This document shows, piece after piece, positions 35,284 to 52,267 of a stretch of 64,000 nt of DNA. Each line of letters begins with the position of its first letter. The first letter of the stretch is position 1. The translations under genes were made by a program, and so were the position numbers. The stretch covers positions 2,480,001-2,544,000 of the forward strand of contig NZ_CP121699.1 in assembly GCF_029761935.1 (NCBI RefSeq), given 5' to 3'. Below the pieces are notes generated by a model. It was not told the DNA's origin. It worked only from the letters and a program-made list of their open reading frames with translations, and made no database searches. Source of the stretch: Microbacterium testaceum. Its GTDB lineage: Bacteria > Actinomycetota > Actinomycetes > Actinomycetales > Microbacteriaceae.

Positions 35284-38200
35284 ATGGTGCTGTCACGACC
35301 TGTTTCCGAGGACCGGAGCCGGAGGGGAATCGTGCGACGCGCGGGCTCGCTCGTCGCGGCTGCGGCCGTCGTCCTGAGCGGCCTGGTCCCCGCCGTCGCC
35401 GCCTCGGCGGCGCCGCTGCCCACGCCGCTGGCGTCGTACGACTTCGCCGCGACGACCGGAACCACGGTCCCCGACTCCTCGGGGCACGGACACGACGCGG
35501 TCATCCGCGGCACCGGCTCGAGCGTCGACGGAGACGCCCTCTCGCTGCCGGGCGGAGCCTCGGGCTCCTCGGCCGCCTACGTCGAACTGCCCACGGGTCT
35601 CTTCGACGGCAAGAGCACCGTCACCGTCTCGGCCTGGCTGCAGGACCGCACCGGAGCGGGCAACCAGGCGGCGATGTTCTTCGGCACCACAGAGAACCTC
35701 CCCCAGCAGTACTGGCTGCTCAATCCCGCCAACCCGGCCGGTCAGGTCAAGTCGGTGCTGACGGACGGACCACGGATCGCGCAGCCCTGGACCCTCGAGC
35801 GGGGGATCGCGCCGACGGACGGAGCCCGCGGCATCCCGGGTCCCTCCGCCACCTCCGAGTGGGCGCTGTACACCACCGTGATCACCCCCACCTCGATCAC
35901 CGCCTACCTCGGCGGCACCAAGATCGGCACGGTCGCCACCTCGCGATCGGTCGCCGAGTTCGGCTCGGGCCTGGTCGCCTACATCGGGCGCTCCTCGTAC
36001 CCCGACCGCGTGTGGAAGGGCGGCGTCCGCGACGTCGCCGTCTTCGACAGCGCGCTCAGCGACGACGACGTCAAGGCGCTCGTCGCACAGGGCACCCCCA
36101 CGAACCAGCAGGACGTGGACACCGCCGCGCAGGCCCTCTCGATCCCGGATGCCGATGACGTGCGCGGCAACGTGACGCTGCCCGCGACCGGGACGAACGG
36201 GACGACGGTGACCTGGTCGTCGTCGAACGCGCAGGTCGTGACCCCCACGGGCGAGGTCACCCGGCCCGCCACGGGATCCGCCGCCGTGACCGTGAAACTG
36301 ACCGCCACGATCGCGAAGGGCTCCAGCCAGACCACTCGCGAGATCGAGCTCATCGTGCAGCCGAAGCCGGCGGCGCAGAAGCTCGAGGGCTACTTCTTCC
36401 CCTTCTTCACGGGCGAGAGCACCACCACCGACGAGGAGATCTCGTTCGCCACGAGCCGCGGGGACGACCCGAAGAACTGGCTCACCCTCAACGACGGCAA
36501 GCCCGTCCTCACGTCGGACCAGGGGGAGAAGGGCATCCGCGACCCGTTCGTCATGCGCTCGCCCGACGGGGACCGCTTCTACATGCTCTCCACCGACCTG
36601 AACATGTTCGACCTCTACAACGGCGACTTCGGCCGCGCGCAAGAGGTCGGCAGCCGCAAGCTCAACGTCTGGCAGTCCGACGACCTCACGACGTGGAGCC
36701 CCCTGCGCCAGATCACCGTCTCGAGCGAGTTCGCGGGCAACACCTGGGCGCCGGAGGCCACGTGGGACGCCGATCGCGGGGAGTACGTCGTCTACTGGGC
36801 CTCGAACCTCTACCCGAGCGCGTCCACCACGGGTCGCAAGGCGGCCGACACCTACAACCGCATGATGATGGTCACCACTCGCGACTTCGTCACCTTCAGC
36901 GAGCCGCAGCCCTGGGTCGACGTCAAGCGCGGCGCGGGCAAGGGCACCATCGACGCCACCGTCGTGCGCGACGGCGACACCTACTACCGCTTCATCAAGG
37001 ACGAGGCGTCGATGACCGTGCGTCAGGAGCGCTCGAGCACGCTCACCGCCACGGTCACCGGATCGCTTCCGACCACGACGTCGACCCCCGGCTGGCAGCT
37101 CGTGAAGGAGCAGATCGGCGTCGGACAGCCCAACCCCTGGGGCGGCACGTTCACCAACGGCGAGGGTCCCACGGTGTTCGCCGACAACGCCGAGGCCGGT
37201 CACTGGTACATGCTCATCGACCAGCCGAGCTACCACGGCGGTCAGGGCTACATGATGTTCGAGACCCGCGACATCGCGTCGGGGAACTGGACCTCGGTTC
37301 TGGATGCCACCCTCCCGGCGCGCCCGCGCCACGGAACCGTCCTGCCGATCAGCGCGGCCGAGCAGCAGAGACTGCTCGCGGCGTATCCGACCGATGAGAC
37401 CGCGGACTACTCGATCACTGCCGACCCGTCGAAGGACGGTGCCGCGATCGACGACGCGATGTACGGGGTGTTCTTCGAGGACATCAACAACGCCGCCGAC
37501 GGCGGTCTGTACGCCGAGCTCGTGCGCAACCGCTCGTTCGAGTTCCTGCCCGTCGACAACCGGGGCTTCACGGGGATGACCGCGTGGACGCCGGTGGCCC
37601 TCGGCGGCGGCGCGGGCTCGGCGCAGCCGGTCAACGACGACAAGCGCATGAACGAACGCAACCGCACGTACCTGCAGCTCGACCTCCGCAACGGGGCCGG
37701 GACCTACGGCGTCGAGAACGCCGGCTTCGACACGGGTGTGGCCCTCACGAAAGACGAGACCTACGACGTGTCGTTCTGGGCGCGGACCACGGCGACCGGC
37801 GGAACCCCCGTCTCGCTCGTGCTGCGTTCGGCCGACGGCACCGCGCTGTCGAACCCGTTCACGGCGACCGTGGGCGGCGACGGCTGGGTGAAGTACCGCG
37901 GCTCCGTGACGGCGACGGCCACGACCGACGCGGCCCGCGTGCTCGTCCAGGCCGCCGGCACCGGGACGCTGCGCCTCGACGAGGTCTCGGTCTTCCCGCG
38001 CGACACCTTCATGGGCCGGACCAACGGTCTGCGCAAGGACGTCGCTCAGAAGATCGCCGACCTGCACCCGAAGTTCGTCCGCTTCCCGGGCGGGTGCATC
38101 GTCAACGTCAACAGCCACGCCGACTACTCGGCGGGCTCCAACTACGAGCGTGCGCGCTCGTACCAGTGGAAGGACAGCGTCGGCCCGGTCGAGACCCGTG

Positions 38201-40791
38201 CCACCAACGCCAACTTCTGGGGGTACAACCAGTCCCTCGGCCTCGGGTACTACGAGTACTTCCAGTTCGCCGAGGACATCGGCGCCACACCCGTCCCCGA
38301 CGTCCCCGCGCTCCTGAACGGGTGCGGACAGGCGCTGCAGGCGACCGATCCGGCGCAGCTGCAGCGGCACATCCAGGACACGCTCGACCTCATCGAGTTC
38401 GCCAAGGGCGACGTGACCACGACCTGGGGGAAGCTTCGTGCCGACATGGGGCACCCCGCTCCCTTCGCCCTCGATCGCATCGAGATCGGCAACGAAGAGA
38501 ACTACCCCGAGGCCTTCATGGCGAACTTCGTGAAGTTCCGGGATGCCATCGCCGCCAAGTACCCGGACATGATCCTGATCAGCAACTCGGGCCCGGACGA
38601 CACCGGGGCGGTGTTCGATCAGCACTGGGCGCAGAACCGGGCCCAGAAGGTCGATATGGTCGACGAGCACTACTACAACGACCCGTCGTGGTTCCTCTCG
38701 AACAACCACCGGTACGACTCCTACGACCGTCAGGGTCCGAAGGTCTGGATCGGTGAGTACGCCTCGCTCGACAACCGCTTCGCCAACGCGCTGTCGGAGG
38801 CGGCGTACATGACCGGCCTGGAGCGCAACGCCGACGTGGTCAAGATGGCCTCGTACGCGCCGCTGCTCGCCGACACGAGCAGCACGCAGTGGCGGCCCGA
38901 CCTGATCTGGTTCGATCGCGACCAGGTGTGGGGCTCGGCGAACTACGAGGTGCAGAAGCTCTTCATGAGCAACGTCGGCGACCGGGTCTTTCCGACCACG
39001 GCGGGCGGGGATCTGGCATCCACCGATCTCGCCGGCGCCGTCGGCCTGTCGACGTGGAGCACCTCGGCCCGGTACGACGACGTGAAGGTGACGACGCCCG
39101 ACGGGAAGACGCTCTTCTCCGACGACTTCGCCGACAAGAACGACGACGGGTGGTCGAAGGTCTCGGGCGCCGGATCGTGGTCGGCCGCCGACGGCAGCTA
39201 CGTGCAGTCCTCGACGACGGCGAACAACACGCTCGTCGCAGGCCCCGCACTGACCGCCACCGACTACGACGTCTCGCTCAAGGCCACGAAGCTCGCCGGC
39301 GCCGAGGGCTTCCTCGTCGGCTTCGGCGTGAAGGGGTCGGCCGACTACCTGTGGTGGAACCTCGGCGGGTGGGGCAACACCCGCAGCGTCGTGGAGAAGG
39401 CCGTGGGTGGGGCGAAGTCGATTGTCGCCGACACGGGCACCCCCCGCGTCGAGACCGGTCGGACCTACGACCTGCGCATCCAGGTGCGCGGCGCCCGGGT
39501 GACCCTCTTCGCCGACGGCGTGCAGCAGGGGCAGTTCACCAACACGGCGGTCGAACCGTTCGCGCAGGTCATGACGACGGACGACACCAACGGAGACGTG
39601 ATCCTCAAGGTCGTCAACGCCCAGGCCAAGGCCGCGGTGACCACGGTGGATCTCGGTGGGCTCACCGTGCTCCCGACCGCGGACGTGACGACCCTGCAGG
39701 CGGCCCCGACGGCGCTGAACACGGCGACATCGACGCCCGTCGCGCCGAAGACCTCGCAGATGCCGGTCTCGAGCACCTTCACCCACTCGTTCGAGCCGTA
39801 CTCGGTGACGTTCGTGCGGATGCACACGCGTCCGGCCGACACGACGGCGCCCACGGTGGCCGTGAAGACCGATCCGGTCTCGCCCGATGGAGCCGAGGGG
39901 TGGTACGTGTCCCCGCCGACGATCACGGCCACGGCGACCGACGACATCGACCAGGCACCGCGCCTCGAGGTCAGCGCCGACGGGGGGAACACCTGGGCGA
40001 TGTACACCGGCGCGGTGACCCCGGCGGAGGGGACGTCGAACGTGACCTTCAAGGCCACTGACGCCTCGGGGAACGTCTCGCCCTTCGTCGCGGCGACGGT
40101 GAAGGTCGACCGCACGGCCCCGACGACGACCACGACGGTGGATGCCGCAGCCCGCACGGTCACGCTCGCCGCGAGCGACAGCGGGTCGGGAGTGGCGCGC
40201 CTGGAGTACCGCGTCGGCGACGCGGCGACCTGGACGACCGCGTCCGGAGGGCAGGCCGTTGTGAGCGTCGGTGCGGGCGCGACCACCGTGTCGTACCGGG
40301 CGGTCGATGTGGCTGGCAACATCAGCGGGACGGGATCGACCGCGGTCGGCGCGACCGCGGGAGACCCGACCCTGTCGGTCTCGGGCGACCTCGTCGCCGG
40401 GGGCGTCGTGACGGTGTCGGGAACGGGCTGGCCCGCGAACGCCGACGGGGAGCTCGAACTGCGCTCCACTCCGGTGCAGCTGGGCGCGGTCCGCACCGAT
40501 GCCGGTGGGGCGTTCCTCGTGAACGTCATCCTCCCCGCGGACACCCCCGCGGGCGCGCACCGGGTGATCGCGCGTATCGGCGGGGTCGAGGCAGCGGTGG
40601 GTATCGAGGTCCGGGCCGCCGCGGGTGGCGCCGCCCCCGTCGTTCCCGCGGCTCCGAGTGCGCCGGCCGGTTCGACCCCGTCGCCGCTGGCGGTGACCGG
40701 TGGCGTGGTCTCGGGTGCGGCCCTCGCCCTCGGACTGCTCGCGGTGCTGGTCGGGGCGGCCCTGAAGCGCCGCCGCCGGGCGATCGGCTGA
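35284..40791 (+). CDS. Surface-anchored GH43-GH51 arabinofuranosidase, multidomain
   Basis: Extracellular arabinan/arabinoxylan enzyme of 1835 aa. A signal peptide is at about 1-42 (ending AVAASAAP). LamG-like domain 45-270; bacterial Ig-like domain 280-360; GH43 about 369-700 (IRDPFVMRSPDG, WAPEATWD, TIDATVVRDGD). GH51 about 715-1270 with an inserted carbohydrate-binding-like domain, RFPGGCIVN, acid/base Glu1071 in EIGNEENYP and nucleophile Glu1158 in WIGEYASLD. A DUF1080/laminin-like domain starts near 1278, then Ig-like domains. It ends with LAVTGG (1802-1807), a membrane helix and KRRRR. Both catalytic domains look intact. GGAGGA precedes the ATG. Confidence 0.93.
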   Translation: MVLSRPVSEDRSRRGIVRRAGSLVAAAAVVLSGLVPAVAASAAPLPTPLASYDFAATTGTTVPDSSGHGHDAVIRGTGSSVDGDALSLPGGASGSSAAYVELPTGLFDGKSTVTVSAWLQDRTGAGNQAAMFFGTTENLPQQYWLLNPANPAGQVKSVLTDGPRIAQPWTLERGIAPTDGARGIPGPSATSEWALYTTVITPTSITAYLGGTKIGTVATSRSVAEFGSGLVAYIGRSSYPDRVWKGGVRDVAVFDSALSDDDVKALVAQGTPTNQQDVDTAAQALSIPDADDVRGNVTLPATGTNGTTVTWSSSNAQVVTPTGEVTRPATGSAAVTVKLTATIAKGSSQTTREIELIVQPKPAAQKLEGYFFPFFTGESTTTDEEISFATSRGDDPKNWLTLNDGKPVLTSDQGEKGIRDPFVMRSPDGDRFYMLSTDLNMFDLYNGDFGRAQEVGSRKLNVWQSDDLTTWSPLRQITVSSEFAGNTWAPEATWDADRGEYVVYWASNLYPSASTTGRKAADTYNRMMMVTTRDFVTFSEPQPWVDVKRGAGKGTIDATVVRDGDTYYRFIKDEASMTVRQERSSTLTATVTGSLPTTTSTPGWQLVKEQIGVGQPNPWGGTFTNGEGPTVFADNAEAGHWYMLIDQPSYHGGQGYMMFETRDIASGNWTSVLDATLPARPRHGTVLPISAAEQQRLLAAYPTDETADYSITADPSKDGAAIDDAMYGVFFEDINNAADGGLYAELVRNRSFEFLPVDNRGFTGMTAWTPVALGGGAGSAQPVNDDKRMNERNRTYLQLDLRNGAGTYGVENAGFDTGVALTKDETYDVSFWARTTATGGTPVSLVLRSADGTALSNPFTATVGGDGWVKYRGSVTATATTDAARVLVQAAGTGTLRLDEVSVFPRDTFMGRTNGLRKDVAQKIADLHPKFVRFPGGCIVNVNSHADYSAGSNYERARSYQWKDSVGPVETRATNANFWGYNQSLGLGYYEYFQFAEDIGATPVPDVPALLNGCGQALQATDPAQLQRHIQDTLDLIEFAKGDVTTTWGKLRADMGHPAPFALDRIEIGNEENYPEAFMANFVKFRDAIAAKYPDMILISNSGPDDTGAVFDQHWAQNRAQKVDMVDEHYYNDPSWFLSNNHRYDSYDRQGPKVWIGEYASLDNRFANALSEAAYMTGLERNADVVKMASYAPLLADTSSTQWRPDLIWFDRDQVWGSANYEVQKLFMSNVGDRVFPTTAGGDLASTDLAGAVGLSTWSTSARYDDVKVTTPDGKTLFSDDFADKNDDGWSKVSGAGSWSAADGSYVQSSTTANNTLVAGPALTATDYDVSLKATKLAGAEGFLVGFGVKGSADYLWWNLGGWGNTRSVVEKAVGGAKSIVADTGTPRVETGRTYDLRIQVRGARVTLFADGVQQGQFTNTAVEPFAQVMTTDDTNGDVILKVVNAQAKAAVTTVDLGGLTVLPTADVTTLQAAPTALNTATSTPVAPKTSQMPVSSTFTHSFEPYSVTFVRMHTRPADTTAPTVAVKTDPVSPDGAEGWYVSPPTITATATDDIDQAPRLEVSADGGNTWAMYTGAVTPAEGTSNVTFKATDASGNVSPFVAATVKVDRTAPTTTTTVDAAARTVTLAASDSGSGVARLEYRVGDAATWTTASGGQAVVSVGAGATTVSYRAVDVAGNISGTGSTAVGATAGDPTLSVSGDLVAGGVVTVSGTGWPANADGELELRSTPVQLGAVRTDAGGAFLVNVILPADTPAGAHRVIARIGGVEAAVGIEVRAAAGGAAPVVPAAPSAPAGSTPSPLAVTGGVVSGAALALGLLAVLVGAALKRRRRAIG

Positions 40792-43176: not shown

Positions 43177-44301
43177 TCAGCTCGTGAGCAGGCGCAGGCC
43201 GTAGGTCTGCAGGATCTCGTTCACGGGCTGGAAGTACGTCGTTCCGCCGGTCGAGCAGTTGCCCGAGCCTCCGGAGGTGACGCCCTGGGCCTGGTTGCCC
43301 GCGAGGAGCGAACCGCCGGAGTCGCCCGGCTCAGCGCAGACGTTCGTGCGGATCAGGCCCGAGACCGACCCCTCGGCGTAGCGCACCGTGGAGTTGAAGC
43401 CCTGGATCTGGCCGCAGTGCCAGCCGGTGGTGGAGCCCGAGCGGCAGACGGTCGCGCCGACCGCGGCCGCGGTCGAGCCCTTCACGGCGACGCTGCCACC
43501 CGCGTAGTTGGACACCGATCCGACCGGGGTGTGGTTGGGCGTGCTCACCCAGGCGTAGTCGTTGCCGGGGAACGACGAACCCTGGAAGGTGCCGTAGGTG
43601 GTGCTGTCGCCCGCGACGCCGCAGTGGCCGGCGGTGACGAACCCGCCCTGCACCGCGAAGCCCACGGAGCAGCGGCTCTGGTTGTTGATGTTGTAGGCGA
43701 CACCGCCCTGGATCGTCGCGAACGTCTCGGGGGCTTGGGCTCCGGTCTCGAGACGGACGGCGCCCGCGGGGGCGTCGAGCGTGGCGACGAAGTCGGCGGC
43801 GGCCTGATCGCCGCCGGCGACCACATCGACGACGAGGTCGTTCGCCTCGACGTCAATCCACCACGAGGGGATGACGTCGGGCACGGGGCTCGACTCGATC
43901 TTCGCGGCGATCGCCTCGAGATCGTCGAGGGAGTGCTCCGCGGCGACGGGCACGGCGCCCGCATCGGCGGCGGCGGCGCGAGCGGCGTCGGTGGTCGCCG
44001 CGGCGTACACCGTGCGCGTGGACTCATCGAGCCACGTGCCCGCGAAGGCGTCGCCCGAGACGGCGGCGACCTCGTCTGCCGTGCCGACGGCATCGGCCTG
44101 GAAACGCAGGACGTCCTGCGCGCCGGCGACGTCAGTGCCGAGGTCGGCGGCCATCGCCTCGAGCAGCTGCGCGTCGACTCCGTCGACGGCCGCGTCGGGC
44201 GACGACGTGGGGGTCTGCGCCAGCGCGGGGGCGGTGGCGGCGGTGGTCAGGAACAGGCCGAGGGCGGCTGCGCCCACGACGGTTTTCGATATGCGGTTCA
44301 C
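43177..44301 (-). CDS. Secreted S1 serine protease (streptogrisin/alpha-lytic type)
   Basis: Exported protease of 374 aa. The GTG at 44301 is preferred over the ATG at 44319 because GGAAGG lies 10 bp before it and the peptide then starts as a signal sequence (VNRISKTVVGAAALGLFLTT, cut after APALAQ). A pro-domain of about 150 residues follows. The mature enzyme starts near IQGGVAYNIN and has the triad His in VTAGHCG, Asp in GNDYAWV and Ser in PGDSGGS, with six cysteines as in streptogrisins. The pro-domain would fold and then be cleaved. Confidence 0.93.
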   Translation of the reverse strand: MNRISKTVVGAAALGLFLTTAATAPALAQTPTSSPDAAVDGVDAQLLEAMAADLGTDVAGAQDVLRFQADAVGTADEVAAVSGDAFAGTWLDESTRTVYAAATTDAARAAAADAGAVPVAAEHSLDDLEAIAAKIESSPVPDVIPSWWIDVEANDLVVDVVAGGDQAAADFVATLDAPAGAVRLETGAQAPETFATIQGGVAYNINNQSRCSVGFAVQGGFVTAGHCGVAGDSTTYGTFQGSSFPGNDYAWVSTPNHTPVGSVSNYAGGSVAVKGSTAAAVGATVCRSGSTTGWHCGQIQGFNSTVRYAEGSVSGLIRTNVCAEPGDSGGSLLAGNQAQGVTSGGSGNCSTGGTTYFQPVNEILQTYGLRLLTS

Positions 44302-44331
44302 GTTGGAGTGACCTTCCATCCAGGGGGATAA

Positions 44332-44353
44332 ATGGCGGGGTACCCACCGCCAT
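44332..44353. promoter_or_regulatory. Palindrome in the leader of the protease gene
   Basis: ATGGCGG...CCGCCAT arms (7 bp, perfect) enclose an inner GGTACC-type symmetry. It is 31 bp upstream of the protease start, in the 182-bp divergent gap. Could be an operator or an mRNA hairpin. Confidence 0.45.
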
Positions 44354-44483
44354 ACAAACACGACCCGGACGAAAAGCGAAGGAATTGCTATGAATATCTG
44401 ATCGAAGTCCAACAAAAACGCTGACAGGCGCGGGCGGCCGATCCTCGGGTTGCGCGGCGGGCCGCCGAGGTGCCACGCGCGCG

Positions 44484-47400
44484 GTGTTTAGGCTGACGGG
44501 CATGAGCACGAACGACTCCGGCACCCCCGTTCCCGCGCTCTCCACGGACCGCCCCGGCCGTGCCGCTCGCATCGCCGGGACTCTCTCGCGCCGAACGCGG
44601 CCGACCGACTCGTCTCGCCGCGGCGCGCTGCCCACGGACCCCTCCGCGGCGGACTTCCTGGCCGCTGCTATCGACGGGATCTCGCGCCCGGAGTCCCTCA
44701 CCTCGGCGGCCTCCGCGCTGCACCGCCTCGTCGACGATCTGCCGACGTCGCTCAACTGGTTCGTCCGCGGCGCTCTGCAGGTGGGCGGTGCCGTCGCCCC
44801 CGTCCTGCCCAGTCCCGCCGTGCCGATCGCGCGTCGGGCTCTGCGCGATCTCGTCTCGGCCCTCGTCCTCGACGCGCGGCCCGAGCGCCTCGGGCCGTCC
44901 CTCGAAGCTCTCGAGTCCCCGGTCGAGGTGCGCCTGGTCGGCCCCGCGGTGGTCGGCGATGCCGGGGCGCGACGCCGGCTCGACGGCATCCGATCGCTGC
45001 TCGCTCGTGAGGACGTGGGACGGATTTCGCTCGCGATCTCCGACGTCGTGGTCGCGCCGTCGCCGTGGGCCTTCGACGCCGAAGTCGAACACGCCGCCGA
45101 GCGCCTGCTGCCGGTGTTCCTCGACGCGGTCGCCGCGCGCACGCACGTGACCCTCGTCGCCGAGGGGCGCGATGACCTCGATCTCACCGTCGCCGTTCTC
45201 ACCCGCGTTCTCGAGGAGCCCCGTCTGACCGGTCTGCGGGCCGGCATCCAGGTGCCGATCGCCGTCGCCGAGACGGCCGCCGCGGTCCGCGAACTGTCGG
45301 CGTGGGCGCGCGTTCGCACCTCGGCGGGCGGTGCCCGCCTGACGGTGCGGCTGAGCGACGCCGTCATCGAGACCCCGGATGCCGTGTCGGCGGCGCGTCA
45401 CGGGTGGCCCGCCCCCTCGGTCACGGCGCGCGACGACGTGGACGCCGCGCTCGTGCGCGGCCTGCGCGAGGCGCTGAGCGCGCGCGGGCAGGAGGGGTTC
45501 GCGGTCGAGGTCGCCACCGCCGACCCCGAGCGCGCCGCCCTGGCGCTCGCCCTCGCGGCGGAGGCCGAGACCGAGGTCGTGCTGGCGCTGCCGCACACCA
45601 CCGCCTGGCTGCCGGGGGACGGGTACGTGCAGACGGCCCCCGCCGCGCATCCCGATGACCTCGACGCCGTCGTCGCCGGCCTCGCCGCCGGATACGCGCG
45701 AGCCGTGGCCGGAGCGCCCGACCTCCCCCTCGCCGTGCCCGATCCGCCCGCCGGCGCAGACGAAGCGGACGCCGACCCCCCGGGTGCCGACGATGCACCC
45801 GAAACCGCGTCGATCGCGGCCCGGGTGCGTCGCGCTCTCGCCGCCGCCGAGCTCCCCGGGCCCGCCGCGCGCGTCGCACGGCGCGGAGTCGAGGGCGATC
45901 CGGCGATCCTGCGGGAACGCGTGGGCGACGACGCCGCCGACCCCGGGCTCACGCAGGCGGTGCTGGGCATCGCGCGAGAGGCTGCGGCATCCGGAGACAC
46001 CTCCGCGCTGGGACCGGACGTGCAGCAGATGCTCTTCGGCGGCCAGTCGTTCGTCGACACGGCCGTGTTCTCGGCCCGCGAGAGCGCCGAGCTCGCCGGA
46101 GGCGCCCCCGGGTTCCGCAACGTCGCCGACACCGATCCGACCGTGCCCGCCGACCGCGCCTGGGCGGTCGCCGTCCTGGGCCGCGTGTCCGACTCGACCG
46201 CCGGCGACGCCACCGCCGCCGCCGGGCGCGTCGACGACGAGGCGGGACTCGACGCGGTGATCGACCGCGTGCGCACCGCCGCCGAGCCGTGGGGTGCGCT
46301 CGCCGCCGCGGACCGCGCCGCCGTCCTGCAGTCGGCCGCGCGCAGCCTCGAGCAGCGCCGCGCCGAGGTGATCGAAGTGCTCGCCTCGGAGGGAGGGGCG
46401 TTGCTCTCCGAAGCCGACGCCGAAGTGAGCCAGGCGGTGGATGCCGCCGCCTATTACGCGGCGACGGCGAAAGAACTCGACCGCGTCCCCGGGGCGGTGT
46501 TCGTGCCCGATCGGGTGAGCGTGGTCGCCCCCCGATGGAACGCCCCCGTCGGCCTCTGCGCCGCCGAGACGCTGGCCGCTCTCGTCGCGGGGTCCGGAGT
46601 GGTGCTGACGCCCTCGCCGCGCGCTCGTCGTGCCGGAGCCGTCGTGGCCGAGGCGCTGTGGGCCGCGGGAGTACCGCGCGACCTGCTCGCCTACGTCGAC
46701 CTCAACGAAGACGCGTCCGGGCGGGCCCTGATCGCGCACCCCGGCGTCGACCGTGTGCTGCTCGCCGGCGCGCGCACCACCGCCGAACGCTTCGCCGCGT
46801 GGCGCCCCGCGCTGCCCGTGCAGGCGTTCACGGCCGGACGGAACGTCGCGATCGTCGCCCCCTCGGCCGACCTCGACGCCGCCGTGACCGACATCGTGAG
46901 CGGCGCCTTCGCGCGCGCCGGTCAGGCCGCCACGGCCGTGTCGCTCGTGATCCTCGTGGGCGCCGTCGGGCGGTCCTCGCGCTTCACCGAGCAGCTGAAG
47001 GATGCCGTCTCGTCGCTGCGCGTGGGGCCGTCCGACGACCCGCTGTCCGACATCGGCCCGCTCGTCGAAGAACCCGCGGGAGAGGTGCGGCGCGCCCTGA
47101 CCGTCCTCGGTGACGGCGAGCGGTGGCTCGTGGAGCCGCGAGAGCTCGACCTCGGGCCCGAGACGGCCGGCCGGTTCTGGTCGCCCGGCGTCCGCACGGG
47201 CGTCACCGCCGGCTCCCACCTGACCCGGGCCGCGGTCGCGGCGCCGGTGCTCGGCATCCTGCACGCTCCCACCGTCACCCGCGCGATCGAGTTGCAGAAC
47301 GCGATCGGATCGGGGTTCGTGGCGGGCCTCCATACCCGCGATGAGGCCGACCTCGACCTCTGGCTCGACAGCGTCGAGGCGGCCGTCCTGCGGGTGAACC

Positions 47401-48215
47401 GCCCCTCGACCGGAGCGGTGATCCAGCGCGAGCCGCTCGGCGGCTGGGGCGAGGCGTCCGCCGGCGACGGCGCCATGTCGGGCGGGCCGAACCGCCTCGT
47501 GACCCTCGGCTCGTGGCGCCCCTCGACGGGCGGGGCGTCGTCGTCGACCCTGCACCTGCGCGGCCTCGACTCGCGGATCACGGCGCTCATCGAGGCGGCC
47601 CAGCCCACCCTGTCGTACGAGGCGTTCGACTGGCTCCGTCGCGGAGCGCTCGCCGACGCCGTCGCGTGGGACCGCGAGTTCGGTCGCGTGCGAGACGTCT
47701 CGCGCCTGGGCGTCGAGCGCAACCTCCGTCGCTACCGGCCGGTCGACGTGGCCGTGCGTGCGACCGCCGACGCCGCGTGGCAGGCGGTCCTGCGCGTCCT
47801 CGTCGCCGCCGTCCGGTCGGGGTCGACCTTCAGCCTCAGTACGCCGGTGGGTCTGCCCGCGGCGGTCCGGCACCTGCTGGGCGAGAGCGGTGTCGCCGTG
47901 TCGGTCGAGAGCGATGCCGAGTGGCTGCAGCGCCTGGCGGGTGGCATCCCGGATGCCGCCGCCGACGACGCCGACACCCTCGTCACGGCCCCGCGACCGG
48001 GTCGCCTGCGCCTGGTCGGACCGGCCGACACGGTCGCCGCCCTGCGCACGGCCGTCGCCGAGACGGTCGGCGGGGACGTCTCGCTCACCGTGTACGCGAA
48101 CGAGGTGACCACCGCGGGTCGCCTCGAGCTGCTGCCGTTCCTGCGGGAGCAGGCGGTGTCGATCGGGGCGTTCCGCTTCGGCGCGGTCGACGCGTGGAGT
48201 GCCGCGGTCATCTGA
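44484..48215 (+). CDS. PutA-like protein with both active sites lost
   Basis: 1243 aa with the overall length and layout of bifunctional proline dehydrogenase/P5C dehydrogenase. Recognisable family stretches include SAWARVRTSAGGARLTVRL, HGWPAPSV, VAPRWNAPVGLCAAETLAAL and SLVILVGAVGRSSRF. Key residues differ. The dehydrogenase Cys (GQ-x-C-S-A in the family) is GQAATA at 813-818; the Glu before GGKN is replaced in FTAGRN (782-787); the proline-site VKGA segment reads LSDAV (290-294); and the LDMEEYRD segment reads LVAEGRDD. It is probably a non-catalytic paralogue, perhaps regulatory. The frame is intact and codon use is normal, so it is not simply decaying. Ordinary putA must lie elsewhere. 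Confidence 0.8.
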   Translation: MFRLTGMSTNDSGTPVPALSTDRPGRAARIAGTLSRRTRPTDSSRRGALPTDPSAADFLAAAIDGISRPESLTSAASALHRLVDDLPTSLNWFVRGALQVGGAVAPVLPSPAVPIARRALRDLVSALVLDARPERLGPSLEALESPVEVRLVGPAVVGDAGARRRLDGIRSLLAREDVGRISLAISDVVVAPSPWAFDAEVEHAAERLLPVFLDAVAARTHVTLVAEGRDDLDLTVAVLTRVLEEPRLTGLRAGIQVPIAVAETAAAVRELSAWARVRTSAGGARLTVRLSDAVIETPDAVSAARHGWPAPSVTARDDVDAALVRGLREALSARGQEGFAVEVATADPERAALALALAAEAETEVVLALPHTTAWLPGDGYVQTAPAAHPDDLDAVVAGLAAGYARAVAGAPDLPLAVPDPPAGADEADADPPGADDAPETASIAARVRRALAAAELPGPAARVARRGVEGDPAILRERVGDDAADPGLTQAVLGIAREAAASGDTSALGPDVQQMLFGGQSFVDTAVFSARESAELAGGAPGFRNVADTDPTVPADRAWAVAVLGRVSDSTAGDATAAAGRVDDEAGLDAVIDRVRTAAEPWGALAAADRAAVLQSAARSLEQRRAEVIEVLASEGGALLSEADAEVSQAVDAAAYYAATAKELDRVPGAVFVPDRVSVVAPRWNAPVGLCAAETLAALVAGSGVVLTPSPRARRAGAVVAEALWAAGVPRDLLAYVDLNEDASGRALIAHPGVDRVLLAGARTTAERFAAWRPALPVQAFTAGRNVAIVAPSADLDAAVTDIVSGAFARAGQAATAVSLVILVGAVGRSSRFTEQLKDAVSSLRVGPSDDPLSDIGPLVEEPAGEVRRALTVLGDGERWLVEPRELDLGPETAGRFWSPGVRTGVTAGSHLTRAAVAAPVLGILHAPTVTRAIELQNAIGSGFVAGLHTRDEADLDLWLDSVEAAVLRVNRPSTGAVIQREPLGGWGEASAGDGAMSGGPNRLVTLGSWRPSTGGASSSTLHLRGLDSRITALIEAAQPTLSYEAFDWLRRGALADAVAWDREFGRVRDVSRLGVERNLRRYRPVDVAVRATADAAWQAVLRVLVAAVRSGSTFSLSTPVGLPAAVRHLLGESGVAVSVESDAEWLQRLAGGIPDAAADDADTLVTAPRPGRLRLVGPADTVAALRTAVAETVGGDVSLTVYANEVTTAGRLELLPFLREQAVSIGAFRFGAVDAWSAAVI

Positions 48216-48273
48216 GCGGTGTCCCGTCCTCGGCGCCGCCCGGCCCGGCCGGTGCCCAGGACGCACTCGTTCG

Positions 48274-48334
48274 CCGAGGACGCACGTGATCGGTGCCCGT
48301 TCCGTGCGGCTTCGCCGAAGGGATGCGTCCTCGG
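48274..48334. repeat. 61-bp palindrome between the PutA-like gene and abfA
   Basis: CCGAGGACGCA and TGCGTCCTCGG are perfect 11-bp inverted arms. AGGACGCAC also occurs directly upstream at 48258, so a third partial arm is present. Same design as the other intergenic palindromes but a different sequence. Confidence 0.6.
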
Positions 48335-48347
48335 CCGCCTGCACCGG

Positions 48348-48363
48348 GTTTCGAAAACGTTTA
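48348..48363. promoter_or_regulatory. LacI-family operator upstream of abfA
   Basis: GTTTCGAAAACGTTTA contains AAACGTTT with a central CG, the usual LacI/GalR core. It lies 50 bp before the arabinofuranosidase start and differs from the sites at 35 kb, so a different regulator is implied. Confidence 0.6.
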
Positions 48364-48412
48364 GCGTGACGCCCGCGCCGGGGTAGCGTCGTCGCAACCC
48401 CGAGGAGCACCG

Positions 48413-49927
48413 ATGACCGCTGCCCACCTGACCGTCGACCCCCGCTTCGCGATCGGCACCGTGCGCCGACGTTTGTTCGGCGGGTTCGTCGAGCACCTCG
48501 GTCGTCACGTCTACGACGGCATCTACGAGCCGGGCCACCCGGCGGCGGATGAGCAGGGGTTCCGCACCGACGTGCTCGAGCTCGTGCGCGAGCTGGGCGT
48601 GTCGATGATCCGCTACCCCGGTGGCAACTTCGTGTCGGGGTTCCGCTGGGAGGACAGCGTCGGCCCGCGCGCGCAGCGCCCCCGCCGTCTCGACCTCGCG
48701 TGGCACTCGACCGAGACGAACGAGGTCGGCCTGCACGAGTTCGCCGACTGGCTCGACAAGGCCGGCAGCGAGCTCATGCTGGCCGTCAACCTCGGTACGC
48801 GCGGCGTTCTCGAGGCGCTCGACCTGCTCGAGTACAGCAACGTGCCCGGTGGCACCGCGCTGTCGCAGCGGAGGATCGACAACGGCCGCGCCGAGCCGTT
48901 CGACGTGCGCGTGTGGTGCCTCGGCAACGAGATGGACGGACCGTGGCAGCTCGGTCACCGCTCCGCCGACGACTACGGCACGCTCGCGGCGCAGACCGCC
49001 CGGGGCATGCGGCAGATGGACCCCTCGATCGAACTGGTCGTGTGCGGGTCGTCGGGGGCCGCGATGCCCACGTTCGGGGAGTGGGAGCGCGAGGTGCTCA
49101 CCCACACCTACGACGACGTCGACATGATCTCGTGCCACGCGTACTACCAAGAGCACGACGGCGACGCGGCCTCGTTCCTCGCCTCGGCCGTCGACATGGA
49201 CCGCTTCATCGAGGGGGTCGTCGCCACCGCCGACCACGTCGGCGCCGCCCGCGGCAGCGGCAAGAAGATCGACATCTCGTTCGACGAGTGGAACGTCTGG
49301 TACATCGACCGCGTCGACGCCGTGAAGCCCACTGCGATCGACGACTGGCCCATCGCGCCGCGCCTGCTCGAAGACGTGTATTCGGTCCTGGATGCCGTCG
49401 TCTTCGGCAGTCTCCTGATCTCGCTGTTGAAACACGCCGATCGCGTCGCTTCGGCCTCGCTCGCACAGCTCGTGAACGTGATCGCCCCGATCATGACCGA
49501 GCCCGGCGGCCCCGCGTGGCGCCAGACGACGTTCTTCCCCTTCGCCCTCACCTCGCACCTCGCGCGGGGCGAGGCGGTGCGTCTGCGGGTCGAGGCGCCC
49601 ACGATCGACACGGCGCGGTACGGAACGGTCTCCGCGGTGGATGCCGTGGCCACCGTCGACGACGCAGCGGAAGCCGTCGCGGTGTTCCTCGTCCACCGCG
49701 GCCTCGAGCGACCGGTGGACCTCGAGATCGACGTGAGCGCCTTCGGCGAGGTCGAGGTGGTCGAGACGCACCTGCTGCACGACGACGACCCCGGGGCGTC
49801 CAACACTCTCGACGACCCCGAACGCGTGCGGCCGCGAACGGTGCAGACGCGCCTGGGGAGCGGCATCCTGTATCTGACTCTGCCGCCGGTCGCGTGGGCT
49901 GCGGTGTCGCTGCGCCGGGTCGGCTGA
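48413..49927 (+). CDS. abfA: Alpha-L-arabinofuranosidase, GH51
   Basis: Cytoplasmic retaining glycosidase releasing arabinose from arabino-oligosaccharides, 504 aa. IGTVRRRLFGGFVEHLGRHV and GIYEPGHP open the barrel. YPGGNFVSGFRWEDSVGP follows, then the acid/base Glu in WCLGNEMDGPW and the nucleophile Glu in ISFDEWNVWY. No signal peptide, so it should act on oligosaccharides released by the surface GH43-GH51 enzyme. CGAGGAGC precedes the ATG, with a LacI-type operator upstream. Confidence 0.95.
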   Translation: MTAAHLTVDPRFAIGTVRRRLFGGFVEHLGRHVYDGIYEPGHPAADEQGFRTDVLELVRELGVSMIRYPGGNFVSGFRWEDSVGPRAQRPRRLDLAWHSTETNEVGLHEFADWLDKAGSELMLAVNLGTRGVLEALDLLEYSNVPGGTALSQRRIDNGRAEPFDVRVWCLGNEMDGPWQLGHRSADDYGTLAAQTARGMRQMDPSIELVVCGSSGAAMPTFGEWEREVLTHTYDDVDMISCHAYYQEHDGDAASFLASAVDMDRFIEGVVATADHVGAARGSGKKIDISFDEWNVWYIDRVDAVKPTAIDDWPIAPRLLEDVYSVLDAVVFGSLLISLLKHADRVASASLAQLVNVIAPIMTEPGGPAWRQTTFFPFALTSHLARGEAVRLRVEAPTIDTARYGTVSAVDAVATVDDAAEAVAVFLVHRGLERPVDLEIDVSAFGEVEVVETHLLHDDDPGASNTLDDPERVRPRTVQTRLGSGILYLTLPPVAWAAVSLRRVG

Positions 49928-50168: not shown

Positions 50169-51053
50169 ATGTCCGCTACCCCCACCGCCACCGCCGCCGA
50201 GTCCTCGACGGGCGCGCGCGTGCAGCAGCACCGCCGGTACCTCATGTGCCGCCCCGAGCACTTCACGGTGAGCTACAGCATCAACCCGTGGATGGAGCCC
50301 TCGCGGCCCACCGACACGAACCTCGCCGTGCAGCAGTGGCAGGCGCTCTACGACACCTACGTCTCGCTCGGGCATGAGATCGAGCTCATCGACCCGCTCG
50401 AGGGTCTGCCCGACATGGTCTACACGGCCAACGGCGGCTTCGTGATCGACGGCATCGCGTACGGCCCGAAGTTCCGCTTCCGCGAGCGTGCCGCCGAGGC
50501 CCCCGCGTTCATCGACTGGTTCGCGGCGAACGGCTTCGAGGTCGCCGAGCCCGTCGAGGTCAACGAGGGCGAGGGTGACTTCCTCCTCGTGGGAGACACG
50601 ATCCTCGCCGGCACCGGCTTCCGCTCGACCGGTGACAGCCACCGCGAGGTCGGCGAGGTCTTCTCGCGCGAGGTCGTGTCGCTGACGCTCACCGACCCGC
50701 GGTTCTACCACCTCGACACCGCGATCTCGGTGCTCGACCCCGTCGAGGGCCCGGGCGGCGTCGAGAAGGCGAACATCGCCTACCTCCCCACCGCGTTCGA
50801 CGAGAAGAGTCAGGCGATCCTCCGCGAGCGCTACCCCGACGCCATCCGGGTGGCGGATGCCGATGGCGCGGTCTTCGGCCTCAACTCGGCCAGCGACGGC
50901 AAGAACGTGATCATCTCGCCGCGCGCCGTCGGCTTCGAGGCGCAGCTGCGCGAGCGCGGCTACACCCCCGTCATGGTCGACCTCTCCGAGCTGCTGCTCG
51001 GCGGCGGCGGCATCAAGTGCTGCACCCTCGAACTGCGAGGCGGATCCCGATGA
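50169..51053 (+). CDS. DDAH-like guanidine hydrolase (arginine/dimethylarginine)
   Basis: Amidinohydrolase of the dimethylarginine dimethylaminohydrolase fold, 294 aa. RRYLMCRPEHFTVSYSINPWM, LPDMVYTANGGFV, GEGDFLLVGDTILAGTGFRS, catalytic His in FYHLDTAIS (about 180) and Cys in GGGIKCCTLEL (284/285) are visible. It overlaps rocD by 4 nt. DDAH would give citrulline, which RocD does not use; arginine dihydrolases (ArgZ type) share this fold and give ornithine directly, which fits the partner better. That assignment is inferred. Confidence 0.88.
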   Translation: MSATPTATAAESSTGARVQQHRRYLMCRPEHFTVSYSINPWMEPSRPTDTNLAVQQWQALYDTYVSLGHEIELIDPLEGLPDMVYTANGGFVIDGIAYGPKFRFRERAAEAPAFIDWFAANGFEVAEPVEVNEGEGDFLLVGDTILAGTGFRSTGDSHREVGEVFSREVVSLTLTDPRFYHLDTAISVLDPVEGPGGVEKANIAYLPTAFDEKSQAILRERYPDAIRVADADGAVFGLNSASDGKNVIISPRAVGFEAQLRERGYTPVMVDLSELLLGGGGIKCCTLELRGGSR

Positions 51054-52267
51054 GCACCGCCGTCGACGACCTCGGCGCCCGTCTCATCGCCGAAGAGGGC
51101 GCGCACCTTGCCCACAACTACCACCCGCTGCCGGTCGTCGTCTCGCGCGCCGAGGGCGTGTGGGTCACCGACGTCGAGGGCAAGCGCTACCTCGACCTGC
51201 TCTCGGCGTACTCCGCGCTGAACTTCGGCCACGGCCACCCGGCGATCCTCGCGGCCGCGCGCGAGCAGCTCGACCGCTTGACGCTCACCAGCCGCGCGTA
51301 CCATAACGACCGTCTCGGGCCCTTCGCCACGGCGCTCGCGCAGCTCTGCGGCAAAGACACCGTGCTGCCGATGAACACCGGTGCCGAGGCCGTCGAGACC
51401 GGCATCAAGGTCGCACGCGCGTGGGGCTACCGCACCAAGGGCATCGCCCCGGATGCCGCGACCATCATCGTCGCGAACGGCAACTTCCACGGCCGCACGA
51501 CCACGATCGTCGGCTTCAGCGACGACCCCACGGCACACGACGACTTCGGTCCGTACGCTCCGGGCTTCGTGCACGTGCCGTACGGTGACGCGGATGCCAT
51601 CGCCGCCGCGATCGATGAGAACACCGCCGCGGTGCTGCTCGAGCCCATCCAGGGCGAGGCCGGCGTCGTCATCCCGCCCGAGGGGTTCCTGCAGCGTGTG
51701 CGCGAGATCTGCACGGCGAACAACGTGCTGTTCATCGCCGACGAGATCCAGTCGGGCCTCGGACGCGTGGGCGAGACCTTCGCCTGCGACCGCGAGGGCG
51801 TCGTGCCCGACGTGTACCTGCTCGGCAAGGCGCTGGGCGGCGGCATCCTGCCCGTGTCGGCCGTCGTCGCGGACGACGACGTGCTCGGCGTCATCCACGC
51901 CGGTGAGCACGGGTCGACCTTCGGGGGAAACCCGCTGGCTGCGGCCGTGGGTCTGCGGGTCGTCGAGATGCTGGCATCCGGAGAATTCCAGACCCGCGCG
52001 AAGGCGCTGGGGGCGCACCTCGAGGCGTCTCTGCAGACGCTCGTCGGCCACGGCGTCACCGCCGTGCGCATAGCGGGTCTGTGGGCCGGCGTCGACATCG
52101 ACCCGTCGTACGGCACGGGTCGCGAGGTCGCCGAGAAGCTGCTTACTCGCGGCGTGCTCGTGAAGGACACGCACGGTCAGACCATCCGCATCGCCCCACC
52201 GCTGACGATCCGCGCGACCGAGCTCGACTGGGCCGTCGAGCAGATCCGGCACGTGCTCGCGGGCTGA
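51050..52267 (+). CDS. rocD: Ornithine--oxo-acid transaminase
   Basis: PLP enzyme that converts ornithine to glutamate semialdehyde, feeding proline/glutamate. 405 aa from the ATG at 51050. AHNYHPLPVVVSRAEG, the MNTGAEAVETGIKVARAWGY segment, NFHGRTTTIVGFS, IQGEAGVVIPPEG, FIADEIQSGLGR (PLP Asp), the PLP Lys in LLGKALGGGILPVSAV, and GEHGSTFGGNPLA are all typical. It forms a two-gene unit with the DDAH-like hydrolase. Confidence 0.95.
   Translation: MSTAVDDLGARLIAEEGAHLAHNYHPLPVVVSRAEGVWVTDVEGKRYLDLLSAYSALNFGHGHPAILAAAREQLDRLTLTSRAYHNDRLGPFATALAQLCGKDTVLPMNTGAEAVETGIKVARAWGYRTKGIAPDAATIIVANGNFHGRTTTIVGFSDDPTAHDDFGPYAPGFVHVPYGDADAIAAAIDENTAAVLLEPIQGEAGVVIPPEGFLQRVREICTANNVLFIADEIQSGLGRVGETFACDREGVVPDVYLLGKALGGGILPVSAVVADDDVLGVIHAGEHGSTFGGNPLAAAVGLRVVEMLASGEFQTRAKALGAHLEASLQTLVGHGVTAVRIAGLWAGVDIDPSYGTGREVAEKLLTRGVLVKDTHGQTIRIAPPLTIRATELDWAVEQIRHVLAG

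Follow-up and report, generated by a model that had tools for sequence, protein, structure and literature searches.

The bifunctional enzyme PutA, which carries a proline dehydrogenase (PRODH) barrel, an aldehyde dehydrogenase (ALDH) domain and a C-terminal domain on one chain, is presented in PMC6017737 as a model of substrate channelling between two active sites, and a Tyr-x-x-Arg-Arg element of the enzyme is described there. Catalytically inactive ALDH relatives have also been reported. According to PMC10650815, the vertebrate pseudoenzyme ALDH16A1 has no catalytic triad and is thought to act via protein interactions, and in PMC4207490 the second aldehyde dehydrogenase of bacterial GRM1 microcompartment loci is an inactive paralogue (Cys to Ser or Pro) that stands beside another aldehyde dehydrogenase and is proposed to be a scaffold or regulator. 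Here, we describe a gene in a 64,000-nucleotide stretch of the Microbacterium testaceum genome (the window) whose product keeps the whole PutA architecture without the residues of either active site. ALDH pseudoenzymes are already known; our literature search, from which most subscription papers were out of reach, turned up none of the PutA kind. With slightly better than even confidence, we favor the reading that this is a neofunctionalized, non-catalytic pseudo-PutA that works by binding, with its ALDH module, C-terminal domain and linker as the working parts.

The window protein resembles ALDH16A1 in having an ALDH fold without catalytic residues. ALDH16A1 is not known to have a PRODH barrel and sits elsewhere in the ALDH superfamily, and the ALDH16 architecture, which is not known to include a PRODH domain, does not fit the window protein, in which a Pro_dh domain is present. 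For the GRM1 enzyme a change of the catalytic Cys is reported, whereas the window protein is bifunctional and has lost both sites and the cofactor contacts.

The open reading frame (ORF) was present at 44484-48215 on the plus strand, where the initial annotation had placed it. Its 1243 open codons were confirmed as a frame; the true start is probably ATG 44502 (1237 amino acids, as in homologue P0001) instead of GTG 44484. Residue numbers (Q) refer to the window protein counted from GTG 44484 (1243 amino acids). The gene and its domains are as follows.

44502..48215, plus strand: putative pseudo-PutA gene, with a probable product of 1237 amino acids (1243 for the open frame from GTG 44484)
44904..45734, plus strand: degenerate PRODH barrel, Q141-417, with the catalytic Asp, Lys, His and Arg-Arg gone and AlphaFold2 (AF2) confidence mostly high
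45939..46118, plus strand: linker, Q486-545, with the motif LTQAVLGIAR...DVQQMLFGGQ.FVDTAVF
46164..47513, plus strand: inactive ALDH (pyrroline-5-carboxylate dehydrogenase, P5CDH) module, Q561-1010, a former active site with new fixed residues
47514..48212, plus strand: C-terminal domain, Q1011-1243, which aligns with the C-terminal part of Corynebacterium freiburgense PutA

The Pfam matches were Aldedh (1.5e-62) and, weakly, Pro_dh (3.2e-7); at E values up to 1 these were the only ones, with no N-terminal ribbon-helix-helix (RHH) domain of the trifunctional PutA type. The best solved structure by sequence was C. freiburgense PutA (PDB 5ux5).

Alignment with the intact PutA of the same genome (PutA-II) showed that the PRODH Asp is replaced by Val225, Lys by Asp292, His by Ala346 and Arg-Arg by Ala402-Gly403. 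In the ALDH module, the catalytic Glu and Cys correspond to Phe782 and Ala816, the NAD-contacting Lys to Thr709, and the Glu and Phe of the nicotinamide motif to Ala917 and Ala919, leaving the ALDH Asn (N686) as the sole survivor among the main catalytic residues inspected. Their roles are established for PutA and ALDH enzymes. The initial annotation had read a replaced Cys from GQAATA, a missing general-base Glu from FTAGRN and altered PRODH Lys and Asp segments from LSDAV and LVAEGRDD; these strings are present, the Cys and Glu positions fall on Ala816 and Phe782, and the Lys position aligns to the D of LSDAV. Whether compared with its own PutA-II or with 5ux5, which keeps motifs such as ETSGKN and GQKCSA, the window protein lacks catalytic residues in the inspected motifs, and unlike 5ux5 it has both active sites and the cofactor contacts changed. 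A PRODH catalytic set, the P5CDH Cys and Glu, and the contacts to FAD and NAD (the flavin and nicotinamide adenine dinucleotides) were not found.

The losses are shared across a Microbacterium clade, as became evident from the best 120 of 479 homologue matches: 62 share them, 56 retain every one of the 12 inspected sites, and two are changed in other ways (P0097 at one residue; P0109, degenerate). The 62, here called dead, were sorted by absence of the PRODH Asp and the ALDH Cys. In all 62 the PRODH Lys and His were gone (one has gaps there) and the NAD Lys was Thr, and in none was the Arg pair intact. The ALDH catalytic Glu had become Leu (34), Phe (21), Val (4) or Ile (3), and the Cys Ala (56), Pro (5) or Ser (1). 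Both the Glu and the Phe of the E-[YF]-F-G-P motif were mostly Ala, and the Gln of the PRODH segment IVLQAY was a fixed Pro. Dead homologues named to genus were Microbacterium, and a few came from less precisely named metagenome assemblies. An enzyme homologue without catalytic residues that is kept across a lineage is a pseudoenzyme, and the window protein belongs to such a group. P0109 is 54% identical to the window protein, and its PRODH and ALDH sites are degenerate in a pattern unlike that of the window clade. P0044 is listed with only 826 amino acids, about the last two thirds of the protein, probably because of a wrong start in the public gene call.

The gene is not a product of chance or of sequencing error, because M. 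testaceum StLB037 has a copy 98% identical to the window protein and the losses are common to the clade. Normal codon use, as claimed earlier, was borne out: GC content at the three codon positions was 0.80/0.57/0.91 overall, every block kept that order, and codon usage correlated at 0.93 with that of the active putA. The independent copy, the codon-position GC and the ratios of nonsynonymous to synonymous substitution (dN/dS) given below ruled out a sequencing error or spurious frame. The antisense ORF at 44388-48410 (1340 amino acids) was taken as a GC-rich shadow frame.

A search for the true putA of this genome (3.38 Mb, single contig) found one other PF01619 match, the separate PutA-II (1151 amino acids, start G000:C1:2888219), which carries canonical motifs. 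Presence and absence were scored in 39 genomes of the genus and 60 of the family. Among the matches listed, eight of the 39 Microbacterium genomes had a dead copy, 28 a PutA-I-type copy and three neither, and none had a dead copy and PutA-I together; PutA-II-type copies were listed for 8/8 genomes with the dead gene, 12/28 with PutA-I and 3/3 of the others. The PutA-II of the eight dead-carrying genomes was intact at the 12 inspected sites. No dead-clade member was found in 59 genomes of other genera, in which the best full-length match was 47% identical. One further PutA-II-like copy, in genome G034 (L086), was in pieces (ORFs of 521 and 347 amino acids), with the PRODH Lys read as Ala.

To place the dead gene relative to the active types, phylogenetic trees were built. 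In a tree of 89 sequences, the dead sequences formed one clade (37 rows, 32 distinct loci, support 1.0; stem 0.687) beside 27 Microbacterium PutA-I sequences (0.742) and apart from PutA-II. An IQ-TREE analysis of 35 sequences grouped the dead and Microbacterium PutA-I sequences at 100, with the dead node at 76 and PutA-I monophyly at 40, these labels being as printed and liable to shift upon re-rooting; because of the last two values, the dead clade could be nested inside PutA-I instead of lying beside it. Microbacterium PutA-I is about 50% identical to the dead protein, of similar length and with the same linker region. Unlike the dead clade, it keeps 12 of 12 inspected residues in 26 of 27 loci (L064 keeps 11), and its linker is variable.

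The upstream sequence also bears on ancestry.

44455..44501, plus strand: upstream region, with CGGCGGGCC at 44455-44463, then TAGGCT

In the window, CGGCGGGCC lies 47 nt upstream of ATG 44502 and the −10-like TAGGCT 7 nt upstream. A TAGGCT box was found 5-9 nt upstream of the ATG in 31/31 dead loci examined (the ATG being set by the protein start in 29 and by the box itself in L048 and L037, with L049 outside the count), in 16/27 PutA-I loci and in 0/17 PutA-II loci, one of which (L090) has its upstream region cut at a contig end. Because the spacing between TAGGCT and ATG fits, a leaderless transcript is probable. The GC-rich element, or a form with one G more, starts 46-48 nt upstream of the ATG in 24/26 dead loci, and at the corresponding place it was found in none of the 16 PutA-I loci bearing the TAGGCT box; its chance rate in a nearby slot was 0.0056 per random 110-mer. 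It is a possible regulator site.

The third line of evidence on ancestry is the downstream neighborhood.

48413..49927, plus strand: arabinosylfuranosidase ArfA, which separates the dead gene from ddaH (context)
50169..51053, plus strand: dimethylargininase ddaH, a neighbor of many PutA-I genes
51017..52267, plus strand: ornithine aminotransferase rocD, which makes glutamate semialdehyde, a neighbor of many PutA-I genes

Both ddaH and rocD follow downstream, in the same orientation, at 20/27 PutA-I loci and, with ArfA between, inside the flanks examined (some of which end early, the genes being out of range in others) at 8/32 dead loci, including the window. Synteny alone was rejected as a proof of orthology, because only these eight loci show both genes and because the Amnibacterium copy L050, which is nearer PutA-II, is also upstream of ddaH-rocD. 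The ancestry argument, built from sequence comparison, is carried by the tree and the promoter box, to which this neighborhood contributes in part. On these grounds, the simplest reading is that the dead gene is the former PutA-I and has kept its promoter, in genomes where PutA-II is present as well.

We further compared the pattern of constraint between the dead set (n = 30) and PutA-I (n = 27). Overall mean pairwise identity was nearly equal (0.76 and 0.75, respectively), and a domain-by-domain comparison is therefore fair. The PRODH domain was less conserved in the dead set than in PutA-I (0.63 versus 0.82), whereas the linker 486-545 (0.89 versus 0.54), the ALDH domain (0.85 versus 0.79) and the C-terminal domain (0.80 versus 0.68) were more conserved. 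In the linker, 42 of 60 positions were conserved at ≥95% in the dead set, compared with 11 of 60 in PutA-I. The dead set excludes L079 and L049 and includes L041, an inclusion that lowers rather than raises its conservation. Among residues invariant in both active groups and lost in the dead clade, those of PRODH had mostly become variable (36, with 13 new fixed residues) and those of ALDH more often fixed (27, with 16 variable; p = 0.0007). The fixed ALDH replacements, which include P684R, G694A, K709T, S784A, K786R, K815A, E917A, F919A, G920A and Y970R, were concentrated in seven active-site motif stretches (19/67 versus 8/105, p = 0.0004); since the sites share phylogeny, these p-values are a guide only. 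The PRODH site thus looks abandoned and the ALDH site re-specified.

Selection was estimated with the NG86 method, which is approximate for GC-rich genes. In 12 close dead pairs, dN/dS was 0.03-0.12 for ALDH, 0.04-0.23 for the C-terminal domain, 0.15-0.27 for PRODH, 0.13-0.32 for the N-terminal part and 0.17-0.30 for the linker region 418-560. The median over all dead pairs was 0.285 (30 sequences, 435 pairs), compared with 0.270 for PutA-I (22 of 27 sequences, 231 pairs) and 0.130 for PutA-II (7 of 8 dead genomes, 21 pairs). The dead gene is constrained yet evolves faster than the PutA-II of the same genomes, and it appears to have been mostly under purifying selection since the loss. No internal break was seen in the stretch examined in 30 of the 32 distinct dead loci, even at identities as low as about 67-68%; contig ends truncate L034 and L049. 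The other two carry apparent frameshifts: in L079 (7822-11620, G007) the dead copy reads as two ORFs (933 and 416 amino acids), and in L041 (from about 13126, Microbacterium sp. B19) the C-terminal part stops aligning. These breaks, in draft or single assemblies, may be errors or real losses.

The sequences support descent from an ancestral active PutA-I whose two catalytic sites disappeared on the stem of a single Microbacterium clade; the sampled members of that clade have an intact PutA-II as well. The dead protein has since been kept at full length, and the inherited TAGGCT promoter box with it. On the favored reading of a pseudo-PutA that acts by binding, the working surface would consist of the ALDH module, the C-terminal domain and the near-invariant linker. 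The former pocket of the ALDH module may have been re-specified to take a new ligand or partner, and the PRODH barrel would mostly preserve architecture. The ancestry and the locus, through the rocD product, point to a likely role as a scaffold or regulator in proline/ornithine-glutamate semialdehyde metabolism; simple FAD/NAD sensing is unlikely, because those contacts are changed too. The initial annotation had proposed a retained dead enzyme with a new role, for instance in regulation, scaffolding or ligand sensing. Retention holds, given the clade-wide losses, dN/dS well below 1, the conserved promoter box and the intact PutA elsewhere in the genome; the new role is backed indirectly, through changed constraint, because parts of the dead protein are more conserved than in active PutA-I. 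Several results weigh against the favored reading: the dead median dN/dS is close to that of PutA-I and twice that of PutA-II, with the dead gene higher in 21/21 matched genome pairs (7/8 dead genomes); two of 32 distinct loci are apparently frameshifted; the linker had a predicted local distance difference test score (pLDDT) below 50 in the first AF2 model and so is not placed; and the seven ALDH stretches were picked by the author ahead of the count. A second AF2 model, of linker, ALDH and C-terminal domain, was poor (pLDDT 46.6).

The faster protein evolution relative to PutA-II and the frameshifts in L079 and L041 are also what a functionless gene, decaying slowly and kept by chance, would produce. 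We consider this quite unlikely, as the other 30 distinct loci are unbroken in the stretch examined despite their divergence, ALDH dN/dS is as low as 0.03-0.12, the linker and ALDH are conserved beyond active PutA-I, and the TAGGCT box is conserved. Constraint on folded parts would also be expected of a regulatory or stabilizing subunit that forms specific mixed oligomers with active PutA-II through its ALDH and C-terminal surfaces, which are the most constrained folded parts, and intact PutA-II occurs in 8/8 sampled dead-carrying genomes. This model is unlikely, since identity to its own PutA-II is only 48% (Q540-1234) and 34% (Q35-360), PutA-II-type copies occur without the dead gene in 15/31 other genomes of the genus among the matches listed, and the PutA-II sequences compared do not have the linker motif.

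At 27 ALDH sites invariant in the active groups a different residue became fixed, and 19 of these sites lie in active-site motif stretches; this could instead mean that the ALDH fold gained a different catalysis through new residues (e.g., R684, C692 and R970) around Asn686. That seems rather improbable: the NAD-contact Lys, Glu and Phe have become Thr and mostly Ala, many replacements are toward small residues, and no new acid-base or nucleophile set was evident on inspection. A still-active PutA with its catalytic residues at other positions would account for the conserved fold and nothing further; it is extremely unlikely, given that the inspected motifs align without catalytic residues and the replacements differ from member to member in PRODH and are mostly fixed in ALDH.

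By keeping the whole architecture next to an active paralogue, the dead clade offers a natural experiment on the other uses of the fold, and the dead PutA is a bacterial pseudoenzyme that can be compared directly with living intact relatives. Among the database names attached to these proteins are proline dehydrogenase and proline-regulon repressor, labels that would lead metabolic models astray.

Degenerate PutA copies were also found in other Microbacteriaceae. Both copies were read in all 20 genomes of other genera that had two PutA-like matches (E up to 1e-100), and in eight of them (eight genera) one copy lacked the ALDH Cys. Like the window protein, these copies are full length and stand beside an intact PutA; unlike it, they are closest to other relatives among 18 sequences and so are probably separate losses. 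As most single-copy genomes were unread, 8/20 describes two-copy genomes and not an overall rate. PRODH residues were lost as well in L121, L142, L147 and L125, and of six inspected PRODH sites L113 kept six, L123 and L143 five, and L149 four. L134 and L115 had lost the ALDH Glu and kept the Cys. In all 20 genomes at least one copy was intact at the 12 sites, the G055 copy (L171) being checked by motif only. Best matches differed between cases (the window protein to L074, L113 to L109, L123 to L128, L143 to L109), so the ALDH Cys was probably lost several times independently, although the number of losses is an estimate and the long-branch groupings of the tree are unreliable. The differing best matches also speak against a single ancestral dead PutA behind all cases. 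In L113, L123 and L143 the pattern is as if ALDH catalysis had been lost first.

A broader and more tentative proposal, which we hold to be somewhat doubtful, is that bacterial PutA is a repeated source of large pseudoenzymes: in genomes holding two PutA genes, the older one would lose ALDH and then PRODH catalysis and stay as a full-length binding protein. In Microbacterium, the re-specified ALDH pocket and the invariant linker would then serve as a new sensor or docking platform governing glutamate semialdehyde flux between proline and arginine/ornithine catabolism.

In the window as in many relatives, the dead gene has arabinan-related genes nearby: an alpha-arabinofuranosidase-like gene at 35284-40791 (1835 amino acids) and ArfA at 48413-49927. 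The divergent ORF at 43177-44415, which adjoins the dead gene in the window and also in many relatives, encodes a secreted protease-like protein with a GDSGGS motif and no NCBIfam match.

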